From Lysobacteraceae bacterium (GTDB lineage: Bacteria; Pseudomonadota; Gammaproteobacteria; Xanthomonadales; Xanthomonadaceae), in the NCBI GenBank assembly GCA_018333835.1, contig JAGXSL010000131.1:1-43503 (forward strand): DNA of 43,503 nucleotides, written 5' to 3'. The translations under genes and the position numbers were made by a program. Below, piece after piece: positions 13,619 to 38,791 of the stretch. Position 1 is the stretch's first letter. Every line of letters starts with the position of its first letter. The notes below the pieces were generated by a model. That model did not search any database and had not been told where the DNA came from. It worked only from the letters and a program-made list of their open reading frames with translations.

Positions 13619-14805
13619 CGCCACTCGCCCCAGGCCCAGAGCAGGGCCGCCGAGAGGGTCAGCAGCAGGGCCATCGCCGCGAGGCCGCCGGGATGGGCCG
13701 AAAGCAGCGGCGACAGCAGCCCGGCCACCCCGGCCTGGAACATCAGCGACAGGAAGGCCTGCATCGACGAGGCGCTGCCACGCTGCGCGGGGTAGAGATC
13801 GAGCAGTTGCAGCATCACCTGCGGGAACACCAGCGCCACCCCGAAGGACAGCAGCACCAGCGGTGCCACCGCCCAGGGCCAGGCGTAGTCGTCGGCGAGA
13901 AAGGCGTAACCGGCATTGGCGAGCGCCGCCAGCAGGCCGCAGGCGAAGCCCCAGCCGAGCATCCGGCGGGCACCGTGGCGGCCGGCCGCGCGCCCGGTCA
14001 CCCAGGCCCCGGCCAGCATGCCGCCGATCACCGGCACGAAGAACCAGCCGAAATCCTGTTCGCCGAGGCCGAGGTGCTGCAACACCACCACCGGCGCCGA
14101 GGCGATGTAGAGGAACAGCGCGGCGAAGTTCAGGGTCGAGACCGCCACCAGCCAGAGGAAGCGGCGGCGGCGCAGCATCCCGGCATAGCCGCCGAGCAGC
14201 GGTGCGGCGCGCAGCGGCAGGCGGCGCTCCACCGGGTGGGTCTCCGGCAGCAGGCGATGGACCAGCACGAGCAGCAGCACGCTGAAGGCCACCAGGAACC
14301 AGAAGATCGCCTGCCAGTCGGCAAGGCCGAGGATCCAGCCACCGACGATCGGCGCCAGCGCCGGGGCGATGCTGAAGATCATCGAGACCTGGCTCATCAG
14401 CCGCTGCGCTTCCTCGCCGTCATGGAGGTCGCGGATCACCGCGCGACCGACGATCAGGCCGACGCCGGCGCACAGGCCCTGCACGAAACGGAAGGCCAGC
14501 AGGGTCGGCAAGTCGGTGCTGAGGGCGCAGCCCACCGAGGCCAACCCGAACAGGGCGATGCCCCAGAGGATCACCGGGCGGCGGCCGATGGCGTCCGAGA
14601 TCGCGCCGTGGAACAGCGACATCAGGCCATAGCCCAGCAGGTAGACGCTGATGGTCTGCTGCACGGCAGCCGGGCTGGTGGCGAAATCGCGGCCGATCGC
14701 GGCGAAGGCCGGGAACACGGTATCGATCGAGAACGGGCCGAACATGGCCAGCGCGCCCAGCACGAAGGCGAGCCGGGCGCGCGAGGGAACGGTGGAAGGG
14801 CTCAT
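13570..14805 (-). CDS. Bcr/CflA-family MFS drug-efflux transporter
   Basis: A 411-residue inner-membrane protein with about 12 hydrophobic segments. It starts LAFVLGALAMFGPFSIDTVF, followed by the family-typical ATSPAAVQQTISVYLLGYG and LFHGAISDAIGRRPVIL (MFS motif A) in the loop between segments 2 and 3, and RFVQGLCAGVGLIVGRAVIRD further on. Members export drugs such as bicyclomycin, chloramphenicol or sulfonamides; the substrate here is not known. Although the frame extends upstream, the ATG at 14805 begins the family-like sequence and overlaps the UMF1 stop by 4 bp, so the two transporters are co-translated. Confidence 0.9.
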   Translation of the reverse strand: MSPSTVPSRARLAFVLGALAMFGPFSIDTVFPAFAAIGRDFATSPAAVQQTISVYLLGYGLMSLFHGAISDAIGRRPVILWGIALFGLASVGCALSTDLPTLLAFRFVQGLCAGVGLIVGRAVIRDLHDGEEAQRLMSQVSMIFSIAPALAPIVGGWILGLADWQAIFWFLVAFSVLLLVLVHRLLPETHPVERRLPLRAAPLLGGYAGMLRRRRFLWLVAVSTLNFAALFLYIASAPVVVLQHLGLGEQDFGWFFVPVIGGMLAGAWVTGRAAGRHGARRMLGWGFACGLLAALANAGYAFLADDYAWPWAVAPLVLLSFGVALVFPQVMLQLLDLYPAQRGSASSMQAFLSLMFQAGVAGLLSPLLSAHPGGLAAMALLLTLSAALLWAWGEWRQAGGSRPPRWARANR

Positions 14806-16121
14806 GCGCCGACGCGGCCCGCCTCCACGCGCCCACGCGCCACATCGACCCGGGCCAGCAGCACGAGGCCCAGCACGAAGAACAGCGCGGTGGCCCCGAG
14901 CGCGACCTCGTGCCGGCCATCGGCCATCCAGTTGATGGCCCCGTAGGCGAGCGGCCCGAGGATCATCGCGGTCTTGACCGCCAGCCCCCAGAGCCCGAAC
15001 ACCTCGGCCTCGCGCCCGGCCGGGCACAGGCTGCCGACCATGGCGCGACCGGCCGACTGGCTGGCCCCCATGCAGATGCCGGCGAGGTTGGCGGCGACCC
15101 AGACCACGGCGCGGGCGTCGGAAACCGCGAGCAGGCCGATCGCCAGCAGCCAGCCGAGCAGGGCGAGCGCCAGCGTGTTGCGGTGGCCGATGCGGTCCTG
15201 CAGGTGGCCGAAGGCGGCCGCGCCCAGCGCTGCCGTGATGTTGACCACCAGCACGAGCTGAATGCTCTCGGCGGCGGTGAAGCCGAGCGCCTGCTGGGTG
15301 TAGATCGCGGCGATGGTGATGACCGTGCCGACGCCGGCCTGGAAGGCGACGATGCAGGCGAGGAAGCGCCGCAACTGCGGCAGGTCGCTGACACCGCCCA
15401 GCATGCCGCGCCAGCGCTCCAGCGAGGTCGCCCAGATCGCGGCGAACGGCCGCGGCGCGGACGGCGTGCGCTCCCTGAGCAGCCAGAACGTGGGCAAGGC
15501 CGCCAGCAGCACGGTGGCACCGGTGAACAGCAGGGTTTCCCGCACCGCCGTCACCGTGTCGCTGCCGCGCCCGTCGGCACCCTGCACCCACCACAGGCAG
15601 ATGGCGAGCAGCAGCACCGCGCCGCCGTAGCCGAACGCCCAGCCGTAGCCGGAGAGCCGGCCCATGCCCTCGTCGCGGGCCAGTTCGGGCAGGAAGGCGG
15701 CGATCAGGTTCTCGCCGGTGCCGAAGGCGGCATTGGTTACCACGATCAGGGCCAACGCCAGCGCCACGTCGCCGGGGCCGCAGAACCACAGCGCCGCCGT
15801 ACCGGTGGCGCAGAGCAGCGTGGTCGCCACCAGCAGCCGGCGCTTGCGGGCGTGGGCGTCGGCATAGAGTCCGATCAGCGGTGCGCTGGCGACCACGATG
15901 GCGTAGGACAGCGAGAGCGCCGCGGTCCAGGCGAAGGTCGCCCAGTCGGCACCGGCCGCCACCACGCCGACGAAGTAGGCGTTGAAGATGGCGGTGATGA
16001 CCACCGTGGTGTAGCCGGAATTGGCGAAGTCGAAACCGGCCCAGGCCCACAGTTCGCGGCGCCGGACCGGGGGGACCCCGGGATCGGCATAATGGCGGCG
16101 GAGCGGGTGCCGGACGGCCAT
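14802..16121 (-). CDS. UMF1-family MFS transporter
   Basis: A 439-residue inner-membrane protein with 11-12 hydrophobic segments. The opening RRELWAWAGFDFANSGYTTV is the hallmark of the UMF1 (Atg22-like) MFS family. The loop YADAHARKRRLLV (motif A type) and SGYGWAFGYGGAVLLL also fit. Substrates in bacteria are poorly known; in fungi the relatives export amino acids from the vacuole. The start is taken as the ATG at 16121. It diverges from srkA with a 76-bp spacer that holds both promoters. Confidence 0.87.
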   Translation of the reverse strand: MAVRHPLRRHYADPGVPPVRRRELWAWAGFDFANSGYTTVVITAIFNAYFVGVVAAGADWATFAWTAALSLSYAIVVASAPLIGLYADAHARKRRLLVATTLLCATGTAALWFCGPGDVALALALIVVTNAAFGTGENLIAAFLPELARDEGMGRLSGYGWAFGYGGAVLLLAICLWWVQGADGRGSDTVTAVRETLLFTGATVLLAALPTFWLLRERTPSAPRPFAAIWATSLERWRGMLGGVSDLPQLRRFLACIVAFQAGVGTVITIAAIYTQQALGFTAAESIQLVLVVNITAALGAAAFGHLQDRIGHRNTLALALLGWLLAIGLLAVSDARAVVWVAANLAGICMGASQSAGRAMVGSLCPAGREAEVFGLWGLAVKTAMILGPLAYGAINWMADGRHEVALGATALFFVLGLVLLARVDVARGRVEAGRVGA

Positions 16122-31988: not shown

Positions 31989-32753
31989 TCAGATCATCCG
32001 CAACACGGGGCGCGCCAGGGCCTCGAGCCGTCCCGGATCGAGCAGCTGGACATCGCGCTGGCGGACTTCGATGACCCGTTCCGACCGGAACCGCTTGAGG
32101 ATCCGGCTGACCGTCTCGGGGGCCAGTCTCAAGTAATTGGCGATGTCGGCCCGGGCCATCGTCAGGGTGAAGCGGGTGGCCGAGAAACCGCGGGCGGCGT
32201 AGCGCTGCGAAAGCAGCACCATGAAGGCGGCCAGGCGCTCGTCGGCACTGTGGTCGCCCACCAGCAGCGAGGCCTTGCCGATATCGAGGCTGAGCAGCTT
32301 GAACAGCTGCTGCTGCAAGTTGGGCACCCGGGCGGCCAGCAACGACAGCTGGTGGAAGGAGAACCGGCACAGGGTCACGGTGTCGAGGGCGATCGCGTTG
32401 CAGGGGTAGCGCTCGGGGTGGATGGCGTTCAACCCAATCACTTCGCCGGGCAGATGGAAGCCGAGCACCTGCTCGTTGCCGGCGACGTCGGTGATGAAGG
32501 TCTTGACCGTGCCACCGCGCACGGCGGCAATGGCATTGAACGCATCGCCCTCGCGGAAGATGTATTCGCCCGGCTTGAAGGGGCCGACGTGGTCGATCAG
32601 GGCCTGGAATGCGGTCAGGTCCGGCTTGGCGTAGCCCTGCGAGAGGCAGGCCTGGGAGAAGGCGCAGGTGGTGCAGAAGCGGAATTCGTCGCCGTCATCC
32701 GCCGCCGCCGGGTTGTGCGGTTCGCGGCGGCTGGGGGGTGAACTTGCGCGCAT
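31989..32753 (-). CDS. fnr: FNR-type oxygen-sensing transcriptional regulator
   Basis: A 254-residue CRP/FNR regulator. The iron-sulfur cysteines are all present: C27, C30 and C36 in FCTTCAFSQAC, and C118 in RYPCNA, matching C20/23/29/122 of E. coli FNR. The cyclic-nucleotide-like domain has FKPGEYIFREGD. The recognition helix reads RLAPETVSRIL, with the Glu-x-x-Ser-Arg that reads TTGA-type half-sites. It therefore should bind the palindromes found in this window when oxygen is absent. The start at 32753 is the only sensible one and lies within the HemN-like gene, overlapping it by 59 bp. Confidence 0.94.
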   Translation of the reverse strand: MRASSPPSRREPHNPAAADDGDEFRFCTTCAFSQACLSQGYAKPDLTAFQALIDHVGPFKPGEYIFREGDAFNAIAAVRGGTVKTFITDVAGNEQVLGFHLPGEVIGLNAIHPERYPCNAIALDTVTLCRFSFHQLSLLAARVPNLQQQLFKLLSLDIGKASLLVGDHSADERLAAFMVLLSQRYAARGFSATRFTLTMARADIANYLRLAPETVSRILKRFRSERVIEVRQRDVQLLDPGRLEALARPVLRMI

Positions 32754-34080
32754 GGGTCCGGTTCCAGCGGTCGAAGCAACAGGCGACCGCTCGCGCCGAG
32801 AGGCGGGCGATCCGGTCGAGTTGGATGGTACGCCCATCCGGGACGAGCGAGCCCTCCTCGAACAGGGGGGCAAGGCGCAGGAGCGCCTCGGCGAAGTGTT
32901 CGCGGAAGTCCAGGCCGAACTGCTCCTCGATCACGGCGGTCGAGATCCGTCCGTGGCAGAGGATCTCCTGGATGACGGCGGCGCGGATGCGGTCGTCATC
33001 CTCCAGCTCGATGCCGTGGTCGACGGCGCGCTGGCCGCGATCGAGCCGCGCTTCCCAGGTGGCGAGATCGAGCGGGTTCTGGGCGTGGCAGCCCCCCATC
33101 TGGCTGATGGCGGCGACGCCGAAGCCGATCAGATCCACCGCGCCATGCACGCCGTAACCGAGTGCGTCGCGGTGCAGGCTGCCGTGCTTCCGCGCCGCGA
33201 TCAGCGGGTCCTGGGGCCGGGCGAAGACGTCGAGGCCGACATGGAGGTATCCGGCTTCTTCCAGCCGATCGGCGGCGCGCAGCAGCAGGCGCGCCTGCAT
33301 GGGCTCCGGGACGCCACTGGAAAGGCCGTCTTCCGTGCCGATGGCGCAGTTGCGCACGCCGATCCGGTCGGGTTCCGCGGCGATCGTCGCGGCAAGCAGG
33401 GATTCAAGGGCCGATTCGCACTGCCCCGGGAGGCCATAGGGCACTTCGACCCGGAGGTTCGAAAAACCGGCCGCACGCACCGACTCGACCCCGCCGATGA
33501 TCGCCCCGGCGTCGAACGCAGCGGGCCCGCCGGGTTCGACGACGCCGGCCAGCCCGATGCCGACCCGACCAAACCCCAGTCCCGCCCAGTCACGCAGCGG
33601 CGTGGTCCCCAGGGTGTCGAGGTCGAGAGTCATGGCGAAATCGACGGCGTCCGCGGAACGGAGATGGAAATGGCGGTCGAGACTCTCGATCAGTTCCCCC
33701 ACCTGCCCGGCATCCATCCAGCGCGTCATGCCGGGGGCAAGGCTGACCTGCACCACGTCGCGATCGCGGTCGAACAGACTGCCGACCAGCCCGATCTCGC
33801 GGACGAGACGATCGCGATAGGCATCGGCGCGCGCCTGGCCCACCCCGTGGCGCGGGCGGTCCAGGCCGCAGAAACCGCTTCGCTGGATCGCCGGGATATC
33901 GAAATGCAGGGCGATCGGAGCGGGAATCGGATCGCCGTTGCTCGCCTTCACCGCCGCACGGAACTCGGCATCGGTGAAGGGGCGGAAGGCACACGGCGCG
34001 GGATACAGCGCGTAGCGCCCCCCGCCGCGCCGCAGGTTGGCGGCGAGGCGATCGAGCGGCGACAACATCGGGTCCGGCAT
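32695..34080 (-). CDS. HemN-like protein lacking radical-SAM motifs (probable pseudoenzyme)
   Basis: A 461-residue protein clearly related to oxygen-independent coproporphyrinogen III oxidase over its full length: RYALYPA near residue 22, VPYGLPGQ near 213, HRDALGYGVHGAVDLIGFGV near 303 and the C-terminal winged region. The residues that make HemN a radical-SAM enzyme are gone. HIPFCxxxCxxC is replaced by FDIPAIQRSGFCGLDR (only C71 remains) and GGGTPT by SLAPGMT (113-119), while the SAM-binding EVDPR becomes TLDLDT and GVQDF becomes GLAGVV. The frame is intact and conserved blocks persist, so it looks selected, not decaying. It is probably expressed with the peptide upstream and with fnr. Confidence 0.85.
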   Translation of the reverse strand: MPDPMLSPLDRLAANLRRGGGRYALYPAPCAFRPFTDAEFRAAVKASNGDPIPAPIALHFDIPAIQRSGFCGLDRPRHGVGQARADAYRDRLVREIGLVGSLFDRDRDVVQVSLAPGMTRWMDAGQVGELIESLDRHFHLRSADAVDFAMTLDLDTLGTTPLRDWAGLGFGRVGIGLAGVVEPGGPAAFDAGAIIGGVESVRAAGFSNLRVEVPYGLPGQCESALESLLAATIAAEPDRIGVRNCAIGTEDGLSSGVPEPMQARLLLRAADRLEEAGYLHVGLDVFARPQDPLIAARKHGSLHRDALGYGVHGAVDLIGFGVAAISQMGGCHAQNPLDLATWEARLDRGQRAVDHGIELEDDDRIRAAVIQEILCHGRISTAVIEEQFGLDFREHFAEALLRLAPLFEEGSLVPDGRTIQLDRIARLSARAVACCFDRWNRTHARKFTPQPPRTAQPGGGG

Positions 34081-34091
34081 CGTCGACGGCC

Positions 34092-34214
34092 TCAGGCGCA
34101 AGCGCCGCCGCCGCAGCAAGCGCCGCCGCCGGCGGCGACGACCTTCATGCCAAGACCCAATCGCTCGCCGGCCAGGGCCTCGGCATCGGTGACATTGGGA
34201 AGCTGCGCGAACAT
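34092..34214 (-). CDS. 40-residue Cys/Gly-rich peptide of unknown function
   Basis: A short frame, ATG at 34214, stop at 34092, giving 40 residues: an ordinary first half (MFAQLPNVTDAEALAGERLG) and a C-terminus of eleven glycines and alanines around three cysteines (GGGACCGGGACA). It has no signal peptide or membrane segment. It ends 11 bp before the HemN-like gene and starts 61 bp from an FNR-like box, so it is likely the first gene of an anaerobic operon. The CC-x-x-x-x-C arrangement could bind a metal or be a substrate for modification. Coding status is inferred from position and composition; a fully chance frame in GC-rich DNA is possible. Confidence 0.6.
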   Translation of the reverse strand: MFAQLPNVTDAEALAGERLGLGMKVVAAGGGACCGGGACA

Positions 34215-34274: not shown

Positions 34275-34288
34275 CTGACGCAGGTCAA
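34275..34288. promoter_or_regulatory. FNR-like box, divergent promoter
   Basis: CTGACGCAGGTCAA, one change from TTGA-N6-TCAA. A TAGACT hexamer at 34312-34317 lies 33 bp right of its centre, and GAGACT (minus strand, 34246-34251) lies 33 bp to the left. Starts follow at 62 bp (34344 plus) and 67 bp (34214 minus). Class II spacing fits both, so one site may serve both genes. Confidence 0.6.
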
Positions 34289-34343
34289 ATCCGGGCTCAG
34301 GGAGATCGGCCTAGACTGGCGGGCACCCTGCCCTCGCGTCCCC

Positions 34344-34748
34344 ATGGAAACCTTCGACGATCTTCTTGCCGCCGCCCGCCAGCAGGCCGAACCGCAGCGC
34401 CTGCTGCTGGTGTTCACCCGTGCCGAGTGTCCAGCGGATGCCTCGCCCGCCGAGCGGGCGGCCTTCGAACGCGGCGAGGGCGGTGCCCTGGTGCCGGCCG
34501 TCTGCGTCGACAAGCTGCCCGCCGACATCGCGTCCTTCGAGGCCCTGGCGGCGGAGTCGAAGGCGGCGATCGACGACTGGCGCATCCTGTTCGTCGCGGC
34601 GATGGACGGGCGCGGCGGCCACGCGCCGAATGCCGACGAAGCGGTGCAACCCCTGCGCATGATGGTCGAACAGATCAAGGGCGGACGGATCGCCCGCTTC
34701 CTGGCCGTTGACCGTGATGGGCGGCTGGTGAACCTGGCCAGAGGCTGA
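34344..34748 (+). CDS. Conserved 134-residue protein of unknown function
   Basis: A soluble protein beginning METFDDLLAAARQQAEPQRLLLVF, with conserved-looking blocks GEGGALVPAVCVDK and QPLRMMVEQIKGGRI. Relatives are often labelled ribonucleotide reductase subunit alpha in databases, as I recall, but it has none of the features of that 700-residue enzyme, so the label looks wrong. The two visible Cys residues are at 30 and 54. An FNR-like box and a TAGACT -10 precede it. Its last 74 bp overlap the end of nadB on the other strand. Confidence 0.82.
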   Translation: METFDDLLAAARQQAEPQRLLLVFTRAECPADASPAERAAFERGEGGALVPAVCVDKLPADIASFEALAAESKAAIDDWRILFVAAMDGRGGHAPNADEAVQPLRMMVEQIKGGRIARFLAVDRDGRLVNLARG

Positions 34749-37322: not shown

Positions 37323-37336
37323 TTGATGCAGGTCAA
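37323..37336 (+). promoter_or_regulatory. FNR box of narK
   Basis: TTGATGCAGGTCAA is a full TTGA-N6-TCAA palindrome. The hexamer TAGTCT at 37358-37363 lies 31 bp downstream of its centre, which places the site near -41.5 of a start around 37371. The narK ATG follows at 64 bp. Confidence 0.8.
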
Positions 37337-37393: not shown

Positions 37394-38791
37394 ATGGCCG
37401 CCCAACCCGGCAACCCCACCCCCAGCGAGTCGCCCAAGGGGGGCGGCTTCTTCGACGTGCAGACCTGGTTGCCGGAGGACCCGGTGTTCTGGAAAGCCAA
37501 CAAGTGGCTGGCGATCCGCACCCTGGTCATCGCCTTCCTCGCCCTGCACCTCGCCTTCGCGGTCTGGTTCACCTGGAGCGCGCTGGTCGTGCGCCTGCCG
37601 GGACTGGGTTTCGACCTCAGCGTCGAGCAGCGCTTCTGGTTGCCGGCGATGGCCCTGTTGATGGGTGCGGTGGCGCGATTCCCGCACAGTTTCCTGGTCC
37701 TGAAGATCGGCGGCATGTGGACCACCCTGATCTTCACCCTGGCCTTGCTGATTCCGATCTTCGGCATCGGCCATGTGGTGCAGGATCCGAACACGCCGTT
37801 CTCGACACTGCTGTTCTGGGCCGGTGTGGCCGGCCTGTGCGCGGGCGGGCAGATCTCCTCGACCGCCGCCAACATCAGCCTGTGGTTCCCGAAGCGGATC
37901 GGCGGCACCGCCCTCGGCTTCACCATCGGTTTCGGCAACCTCGGCGCCTCGACCGCCCAGTTCCTGGTGCCGCTGGTGATCGGCGTCGGCCTGTTCGGCG
38001 CGGTCGCCGGCGAATCGATGGTCTTCCGGGTGTTCGGCCCGGAGGCCGGCGTCGTACTGCGCGAAACCCTGATGTACCCGCAAAACGCGGTCTACATCTG
38101 GCTGATCCCGACCCTGGTCCTGAGCGTGCTCGTGCTCTTCGGCATGAAGAACCACCCCGCGCGCGGCTCCTTCAGAGAACAGCTTCAGGTCGTCAAGCTC
38201 AAGCACACCTGGATCCAGACCATCCTCTACACCTTCACCTTCGGCACCTTCTCGGGTTTCGTCGCCTCGACCCCGCTCCTGATCCGCGAGGTCTTCGGCA
38301 AGCTGCCGGACGCGCCCGATCCCCTGGCCTGGGCCTGGATCGGCCCGCTGGTCGGTGCCCTGATCCGGCCGCTCGGCGGCATCCTGTCGGACAAGTTCGG
38401 CGGCTCGAACATGACGATGGTGGTGTTCCTGATCATGGGCGGCTCGGCCGTTGGTCTCACCTTCCTCACCGCGCCGACCTCGGTCGAGCAGTTCCAGCTG
38501 TTCTTCATCGTCCTGCTCGGCATCTTCCTCGGTGCTGGCATCGGCAACGCCAGCGTGTTCAAGCAGATCGTCATGATCTTCGACCCCAAGCAAGGCGGCC
38601 CGGTGCTCGGCTTCACGGCGGCCGCGGCGGTGCTGCTGCTCGGCTTCTTCGTGCCGATCCTGTTCGGCCGCTCGTTCGCCGCCACCGGCAGCCCGAACGC
38701 CGCGCTGTGGTTCTTCGCCTTCCTCTACGCCGTCGGCATCGTGCTGAACTACTGGTACTACTGGCGCAAGGGGGCGGAAAAGCCCTGCTGA
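37394..38791 (+). CDS. narK: Nitrate/nitrite transporter NarK
   Basis: A 465-residue MFS protein with 12 hydrophobic segments. The nitrate signature is seen in AGGQISSTAANISLWFPKR and in GFTIGFGNLGASTAQFLVP, together with the arginine pair of nitrate-binding proteins (R in RFPHSFLVLKIGG). It brings nitrate in and nitrite out to serve a cytoplasm-facing nitrate reductase, which is not encoded in this window. The N-terminal 30 residues are soluble. It has an upstream FNR box and is followed by a strong terminator. Confidence 0.95.
   Translation: MAAQPGNPTPSESPKGGGFFDVQTWLPEDPVFWKANKWLAIRTLVIAFLALHLAFAVWFTWSALVVRLPGLGFDLSVEQRFWLPAMALLMGAVARFPHSFLVLKIGGMWTTLIFTLALLIPIFGIGHVVQDPNTPFSTLLFWAGVAGLCAGGQISSTAANISLWFPKRIGGTALGFTIGFGNLGASTAQFLVPLVIGVGLFGAVAGESMVFRVFGPEAGVVLRETLMYPQNAVYIWLIPTLVLSVLVLFGMKNHPARGSFREQLQVVKLKHTWIQTILYTFTFGTFSGFVASTPLLIREVFGKLPDAPDPLAWAWIGPLVGALIRPLGGILSDKFGGSNMTMVVFLIMGGSAVGLTFLTAPTSVEQFQLFFIVLLGIFLGAGIGNASVFKQIVMIFDPKQGGPVLGFTAAAAVLLLGFFVPILFGRSFAATGSPNAALWFFAFLYAVGIVLNYWYYWRKGAEKPC

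Follow-up and report, generated by a model that had tools for sequence, protein, structure and literature searches.

A HemN-like protein without the radical-SAM motifs, encoded beside an FNR-type regulator in Lysobacteraceae

The window analysed here is a stretch of 43,503 nucleotides of Lysobacteraceae DNA (contig JAGXSL010000131.1), taken from a draft assembly of 2.55 Mb in 211 contigs with 90.4% completeness. A cluster-less HemN-like gene is located on the minus strand at complement(32698..34080), with the ATG at 34080 and the stop codon at 32695-32697, and encodes 461 residues in an intact frame; a longer open frame is also possible, starting from a GTG at 34275. A preceding inspection of the letters by a model (hereafter the sequence-only reading) had placed the gene correctly at 32695-34080, without giving its strand. 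The next gene downstream (31989..32753, minus strand) encodes an FNR-type regulator with Cys 27, 30, 36 and Cys 118, 129. With the start of fnr picked by homology to L010, the two genes share 59 bases at the 3' end of the HemN-like gene, stop codon included. On the other side, a NarK-like MFS transporter (37394..38791, plus strand), 42% identical to the narK of the nar island in a genome of the same genus (G004), opens a stretch of narK and mod-type genes up to 43503, in which genes reading as modA, modC and ModE and a modB-like frame are present.

The TIGR00538 (HemN) profile aligned with the window protein over positions 12-447 of 454 with 220.4 bits, and residues 18-449 of E. coli HemN (1olt) did so with an E value of 1.4e-50, in agreement with the earlier description of an intact frame similar to HemN from end to end. 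The score is below the curated cut-off of TIGR00538 (324.95 bits), as are those of all ten core members of the orthologous clade described below (197.7-256.4 bits). In the Fe-S region, IPAIQRSGFCGLD of the window protein stands against IPFCHKLCYFCGCN of HemN, and only one cysteine, C71, is left, as had been noticed from the letters; C71 pairs with HemN Cys69 in the pairwise alignment to 1olt, and a larger alignment moves it by one place. Residues 59-73 (HFDIPAIQRSGFCGL; 33862..33906, minus strand) occupy the place of HemN Tyr56 and the Fe-S cysteines. Alignment of this region across relatives, proposed beforehand as a check for newly conserved residues, identified H59 in all ten core members and C71 in nine. 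Residues 109-121 (VVQVSLAPGMTRW; 33718..33756, minus strand) occupy the place of the SAM-binding GGGTP, which reads LAPGM in nine core members, the window protein included, and LSPGT in one. HemN Tyr56, Glu145, Phe310 and Gln311, which we take to be SAM-contact residues, align with H59, T151, A306 and L307 of the window protein, and T151 is conserved in ten and A306 in nine of the ten clade rows. The replacement of GGGTP and the changes in the SAM-site blocks, both claimed by the sequence-only reading, are thus present.

No match of Radical_SAM (PF04055) to the window protein was found at E up to 1, and the HemN-like gene was not one of the nine places found by a PF04055 search of the window genome. 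The model of the C-terminal domain, HemN_C (PF06969), gave 22.2 bits (E 1.5e-4) against a gathering score of 24. A set of 141 positions shows the same residue in 97% or more of 62 canonical HemN rows. Counting as kept those retained in at least 8 of the 10 clade rows, the clade preserves 28 of the 88 that precede residue 250 and 28 of the 53 that follow it; the C-terminal half, said to be well kept, is so in relative terms. The chemistry of HemN requires the cluster and binds two SAM molecules (PMC10548856), and should therefore be unavailable to the window protein. We regard it as almost certain that radical-SAM chemistry has been lost. By the tested features the window protein is not HemN proper, and its descent from HemN is clear.

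The AlphaFold2 model of the window protein (pLDDT 86.6, pTM 0.87) matched 1olt in Foldseek with an E value of 9.5e-31, and superimposed on it with a Z score of 39.2 (rmsd 2.8 across 413 residues), whereas the second-ranked chain reached Z 10.6. The comparison with HemN by structure prediction, which had been proposed, gave a retained HemN fold. No other family was listed near the score of HemN in the fold searches, although a family missing from these lists is not thereby excluded. With HemN the window protein has in common the end-to-end homology, the fold and, as shown below, a frequent hemN-fnr gene order; it differs by the absence of CxxxCxxC and GGGTP, the changed SAM-site positions and a score under the curated cut-off. 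Two further families are related to it by weak profile matches: HemW (TIGR00539) matched at 18.9 bits, far below its cut-off of 205.4, and HutW/ChuW (TIGR04107) at 20.7 bits, far below 400. HemN-related non-iron proteins are a kind already known, PsgB (TIGR04419), with the model title "HemN-related non-iron pseudo-SAM protein", being a precedent that we cite by this title only. The window protein does not match the PsgB model (cut-off 300 bits) at E up to 10, a level at which HMMER filters drop most very weak matches, and its membership of PsgB was rejected. Among the titles and abstract openings listed by searches of an open-licence library, none describes this family of cluster-less HemN-like proteins.

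By a search of 60 related genomes, an orthologue 61% identical to the window protein was identified in G004, with an FNR gene also next downstream; within the genus, the gene is present in two of eight genomes. Among the matches listed at E up to 1e-70, at least 10 of 395 family genomes are carriers, nine including the window at 427.8 bits or more and a divergent member (G090) at 305.6 bits. The next rows score 294.9 bits or less; 20 of them were fetched, and all 20 proved to be canonical HemN bearing the cysteine motif. The motif check covered the fetched loci, and below the 1e-70 line there are further copies, more eroded than these. The ten carriers belong to one family and bear four genus labels. 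Neither CxxxCxxC nor GGGT is retained in any of the ten, which share the signature LHFD[IV]PA..R..FC plus LFDRDRdVV.V.LAPGM.RW, least complete in G090. Orthologues that keep CxxxCxxC, which the sequence-only reading had named as evidence against its own view, were thus absent from this set. A second collection was scanned with two exact peptide patterns, by which copies without them are missed, and a total of 19 loci were identified: eight of the clade (from Silanimonas, Thermomonas, Lysobacter pythonis and other Lysobacteraceae or Lysobacterales), four of canonical HemN and seven of other degenerate copies.

A tree of 78 rows places the ten orthologues together in a single clade (SH-aLRT 99), separate from the 62 canonical HemN, and the branches of the clade are longer than those of canonical HemN; the HemN-like and FNR trees of this study are short searches with SH-aLRT as the only support value. 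All ten genomes also encode a HemN above the curated cut-off with both CxxxCxxC and GGGTP (those of G163 and G381 were examined through the records of L095 and L093). One may then ask if the window protein is itself a working HemN with unusual cluster ligands. The end-to-end homology, the retained fold and the one conserved cysteine would fit such an enzyme, but CxxxCxxC, GGGTP and the positions of Tyr56, Glu145, Phe310 and Gln311 are all changed and a HemN with intact motifs is already at hand in every carrier, so that we consider this very improbable. The proposal that the protein is non-catalytic as HemN agrees with these results: the parts required by a HemN-type radical-SAM enzyme are missing from a gene that is intact and conserved.

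Conservation was estimated from pN/pS, which ranged from 0.21 to 0.60 in eight of nine clade pairs, with both halves of the gene alike in those eight. The ninth pair (G142/G212) gave about 1.0 with few changes; G212 carries a run of odd substitutions that may be an assembly error. Canonical HemN gave 0.10-0.51 in five pairs, and when five genome pairs were matched, the value for the clade was below that for canonical HemN in two and above it in three. The FNR pair G000/G004 gave 0.25. In a neutral simulation of 400 frames, 12.8% remained open at 0.1 changes per site, 0.25% at 0.3 and 0% at 0.6, where about 9.6 stops are expected and none of the 400 frames was still open. A sequencing error or a fresh pseudogene is ruled out by the ten open orthologues together with this simulation, and the indel or read error that had been raised as a possible objection is excluded by the same orthologues. 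As a separate observation, the HemN-like genes of G142 and G212 (L050/L051) differ with a pS of 0.03 versus 0.32 for their canonical hemN; the island may have moved between the two genomes, or one assembly may be contaminated.

The positions lost from canonical HemN are in part occupied by new conserved residues. At a total of 32 positions, a residue near-invariant in canonical HemN (at least 90% of rows) is swapped for another that is near-invariant in the clade (at least 9 of 10 rows). Among these are H59, D61, R67, R120, W121, T151, R210, E212, R243, C245 and H280, several of the replacements being Arg or His, and 20 of the 32 are located at the ends of barrel strands with the strand limits as we set them. 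Part of this enrichment follows from the choice of sites, since positions invariant in canonical HemN gather around the active site. When lost canonical positions that were re-fixed (32/120) were compared with invariance elsewhere (30/177), P was 0.058, and after thinning of near-copies (34/100 versus 32/175) P 0.005, so that re-fixation is only moderately above background. New polar residues at strand ends would fit a rebuilt barrel that catalyses another, non-radical reaction, for instance one by which heme or ubiquinone is metabolised in the anaerobic island, and UbiM, UbiD, UbiU and UbiV are among the neighbours in some islands. No known catalytic set was recognised among the conserved residues, however, and the neighbours vary among genomes; a new enzyme of this kind is an unlikely reading.

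The FNR gene is located directly 3' to the HemN-like gene and in the same direction in eight of the ten core loci, and the eight FNR proteins form one clade (SH-aLRT 95). Within the genus, FNR at 80% identity or more is present only in the two gene-bearing genomes of the eight, the others having matches at 30-34% identity or none. This linkage would be explained if the HemN-like protein were a partner or modulator of the adjacent FNR, binding to it or relaying tetrapyrrole status, with the two genes travelling as a unit. The same order, however, is common for canonical HemN, since 38 of 53 fetched canonical loci hold FNR at 57% identity or more by BLAST (a narrow text pattern that demands one variable pentapeptide saw an FNR frame in 5 of the 53, and the BLAST count was used), and the pair may simply descend from this common arrangement. 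In addition, G110 and G381 retain the HemN-like gene with FNR elsewhere in the genome, which also argues that the gene is not only a leader for fnr. Even with the nine further loci given below, in which the gene again precedes FNR, we rate a direct FNR partner as unlikely.

Nine further degenerate HemN-like loci, two of them in one genome, were identified directly before FNR, that is, in 9/9 of those with a readable flank (L109, cut by the contig end, was left out of the judgement). Degenerate copies before FNR were found in Tahibacter, other Rhodanobacteraceae, G046, a Steroidobacteraceae MAG (L108), a gammaproteobacterial MAG (L104) and the genus g29. In the genome of L108, no HemN above the cut-off was found. 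The gene of L104 (5899-7251) has broken cysteine spacing and GGGST in place of GGGTP, yet its score of 400 bits exceeds the cut-off for HemN; it may be an intermediate. In g29 (L186, L190, L191), a far more eroded HemN-like gene is located after the narK of a nar island and before FNR, the HemN match being confined to the C-terminal part in both copies scanned; in a fourth genome of the genus (G244) no HemN-like gene was found within the stretch fetched. In the 78-row tree, from which g29 was excluded, 16 degenerate rows are on one side of one branch with support of 76 and with long branches meeting there, so that the degenerate copies may have one origin or several.

The strongly eroded genes of g29, the Tahibacter-type loci and Steroidobacteraceae, which precede FNR in each locus read, together with the longer branches of the clade and the overlap with fnr in the window, could also indicate a slowly decaying remnant, kept through translational coupling to fnr or as the carrier of the fnr promoter. 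Against such decay, pN/pS is below 1 in eight of nine pairs and even across both gene halves there, the frame is open in ten genomes, and two of them keep the gene with no FNR gene adjacent. A remnant is likewise an unlikely account, about as much so as a direct FNR partner.

The second linkage is to nitrate respiration. In nine of the ten genomes, narG (identified by TIGR01580) is located on the same contig as the HemN-like gene, at a distance of 5.5-23 kb, while narG is present in 64 of 395 family genomes; the association of narG with the HemN-like gene gave a Fisher P of 4e-7 over the 395 genomes, shared ancestry not being corrected. The islands contain MoaE-like, narGHJI, PpiC-like and narK genes, of which narH, narJ and narI were recognised by place and sequence, and some contain UbiM, UbiD, UbiU and UbiV as well; gene calls for the islands came from a home-made GC3 script, by which some genes were merged or missed. 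Against a general rule, nine stretches of 14-19 kb that hold narG in other genomes of the family (L192-L200) gave no match to a HemN-like protein or to FNR. The window genome differs from the other carriers in that no narG was found in its assembly, which is 90.4% complete, and the sole match of the molybdopterin family (PF00384) in that assembly reads as NuoG, with a NuoH-like frame after it. A nitrate island in the window genome was rejected on these two grounds. With fnr overlapping the 3' end of the gene and with relatives close to narG, the tie to FNR and nitrate genes is tighter than the letters alone could show; in the window, "nitrate module" means narK plus the mod-type genes.

Regulation of the HemN-like gene by FNR was also proposed. 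An FNR-like palindrome (TTGACCTGCGTCAG; 34275..34288, minus strand) with three mismatches to the E. coli consensus TTGATNNNNATCAA is located upstream of the gene. Palindromes of the type TTGACYTNNNTCAR are present upstream in six of ten loci, 162-374 bases before the start, with two to three mismatches to that consensus in five loci and one in the sixth. Another FNR-like site (TTGATGCAGGTCAA; 37323..37336, plus strand) with one mismatch is located between nadA and narK. In the whole window, five FNR-like matches with up to two mismatches were counted versus 2.08 expected, and 4 of 100 shuffles reached five; single sites therefore prove little, and recurrence across loci is the better argument. 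In Sphingopyxis, an Fnr box is described before hemN2 (PMC7713065). The case for FNR control is drawn from these palindromes in the HemN-like loci, most of which depart from the consensus at two or three bases.

Taken together, the HemN-like protein probably does another job than HemN in this FNR and nitrate setting. The explanation we favour, though tentatively and with rather less than full conviction, is that a HemN paralogue has become fixed in the FNR/nitrate unit, where it would work without radical chemistry and have an accessory or regulatory role related to tetrapyrroles. According to this scheme, an ancestor of these Lysobacteraceae would have carried a hemN-fnr pair that joined a nar island. 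Since each of the genomes has a motif-bearing HemN at another locus, the island copy could have lost the [4Fe-4S] and SAM sites while retaining the barrel fold and the C-terminal domain, and other residues would have been fixed at or near the barrel-strand ends (H59, D61, R67, C71, R120-W121, T151, R210, E212, R243, C245, H280 and D305). The product would be a non-radical protein, produced under anaerobic, FNR-linked control. The gain of Arg and His points to an anionic ligand, for which a tetrapyrrole with its propionate groups would be the natural candidate in a descendant of HemN, most likely coproporphyrin(ogen) or heme. Instead of oxidising coproporphyrinogen, the protein may then assist or regulate the supply of heme to the respiratory chain for nitrate. 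If so, a radical-SAM fold would have been reused without iron in a unit joining heme supply, oxygen sensing and nitrate respiration.

A more specific version of this scheme, which we regard as quite unlikely as it stands, is that a tetrapyrrole-sensing pseudo-HemN signals how much coproporphyrin(ogen) or heme is available to its co-encoded FNR via the rebuilt barrel with its new Arg and His. In that case, nitrate respiration would be switched on only in the absence of oxygen and with heme synthesis possible, and the eroded copies before FNR in other lineages would show that a biosynthetic enzyme was converted, perhaps more than once, into the partner of a regulator. Independent of its function, the gene could be labelled hemN by homology annotation, and any genome-based prediction of heme synthesis under anaerobic conditions that counts it would be misleading.

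Two small genes are located upstream of the HemN-like gene in the window. A conserved protein of 134 residues is encoded divergently (34344..34748, plus strand), preceded by TAGACTG (34312..34318, plus strand), which was read by eye and may be its -10 element; TAGACTG is found in four of six loci compared and TACACTG in a fifth. Relatives of this protein, 77-85% identical, are present in five other core genomes, and that of G004 gave no Pfam or NCBIfam match. Its gene adjoins the HemN-like gene in four of the nine other core loci, diverging from it across the same FNR-like site, and is farther away in a fifth. Between the two genes of the window, a short frame of 40 aa ending in a Cys-containing tail (34092..34214, minus strand) is related, as read by eye, to a 78-aa protein (tail CCGGCGCG), of which it is an internally shortened version with the middle missing in frame. 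The gene for the 78-aa protein sits just upstream of the G004 orthologue, and its product gave only sub-threshold matches (CopZ-type, 18 bits of 85; EH, 14.2 of 22). Several genomes encode a small protein with such a Cys-rich tail immediately before the HemN-like gene, for example at 14573-14809 on the plus strand of L172.
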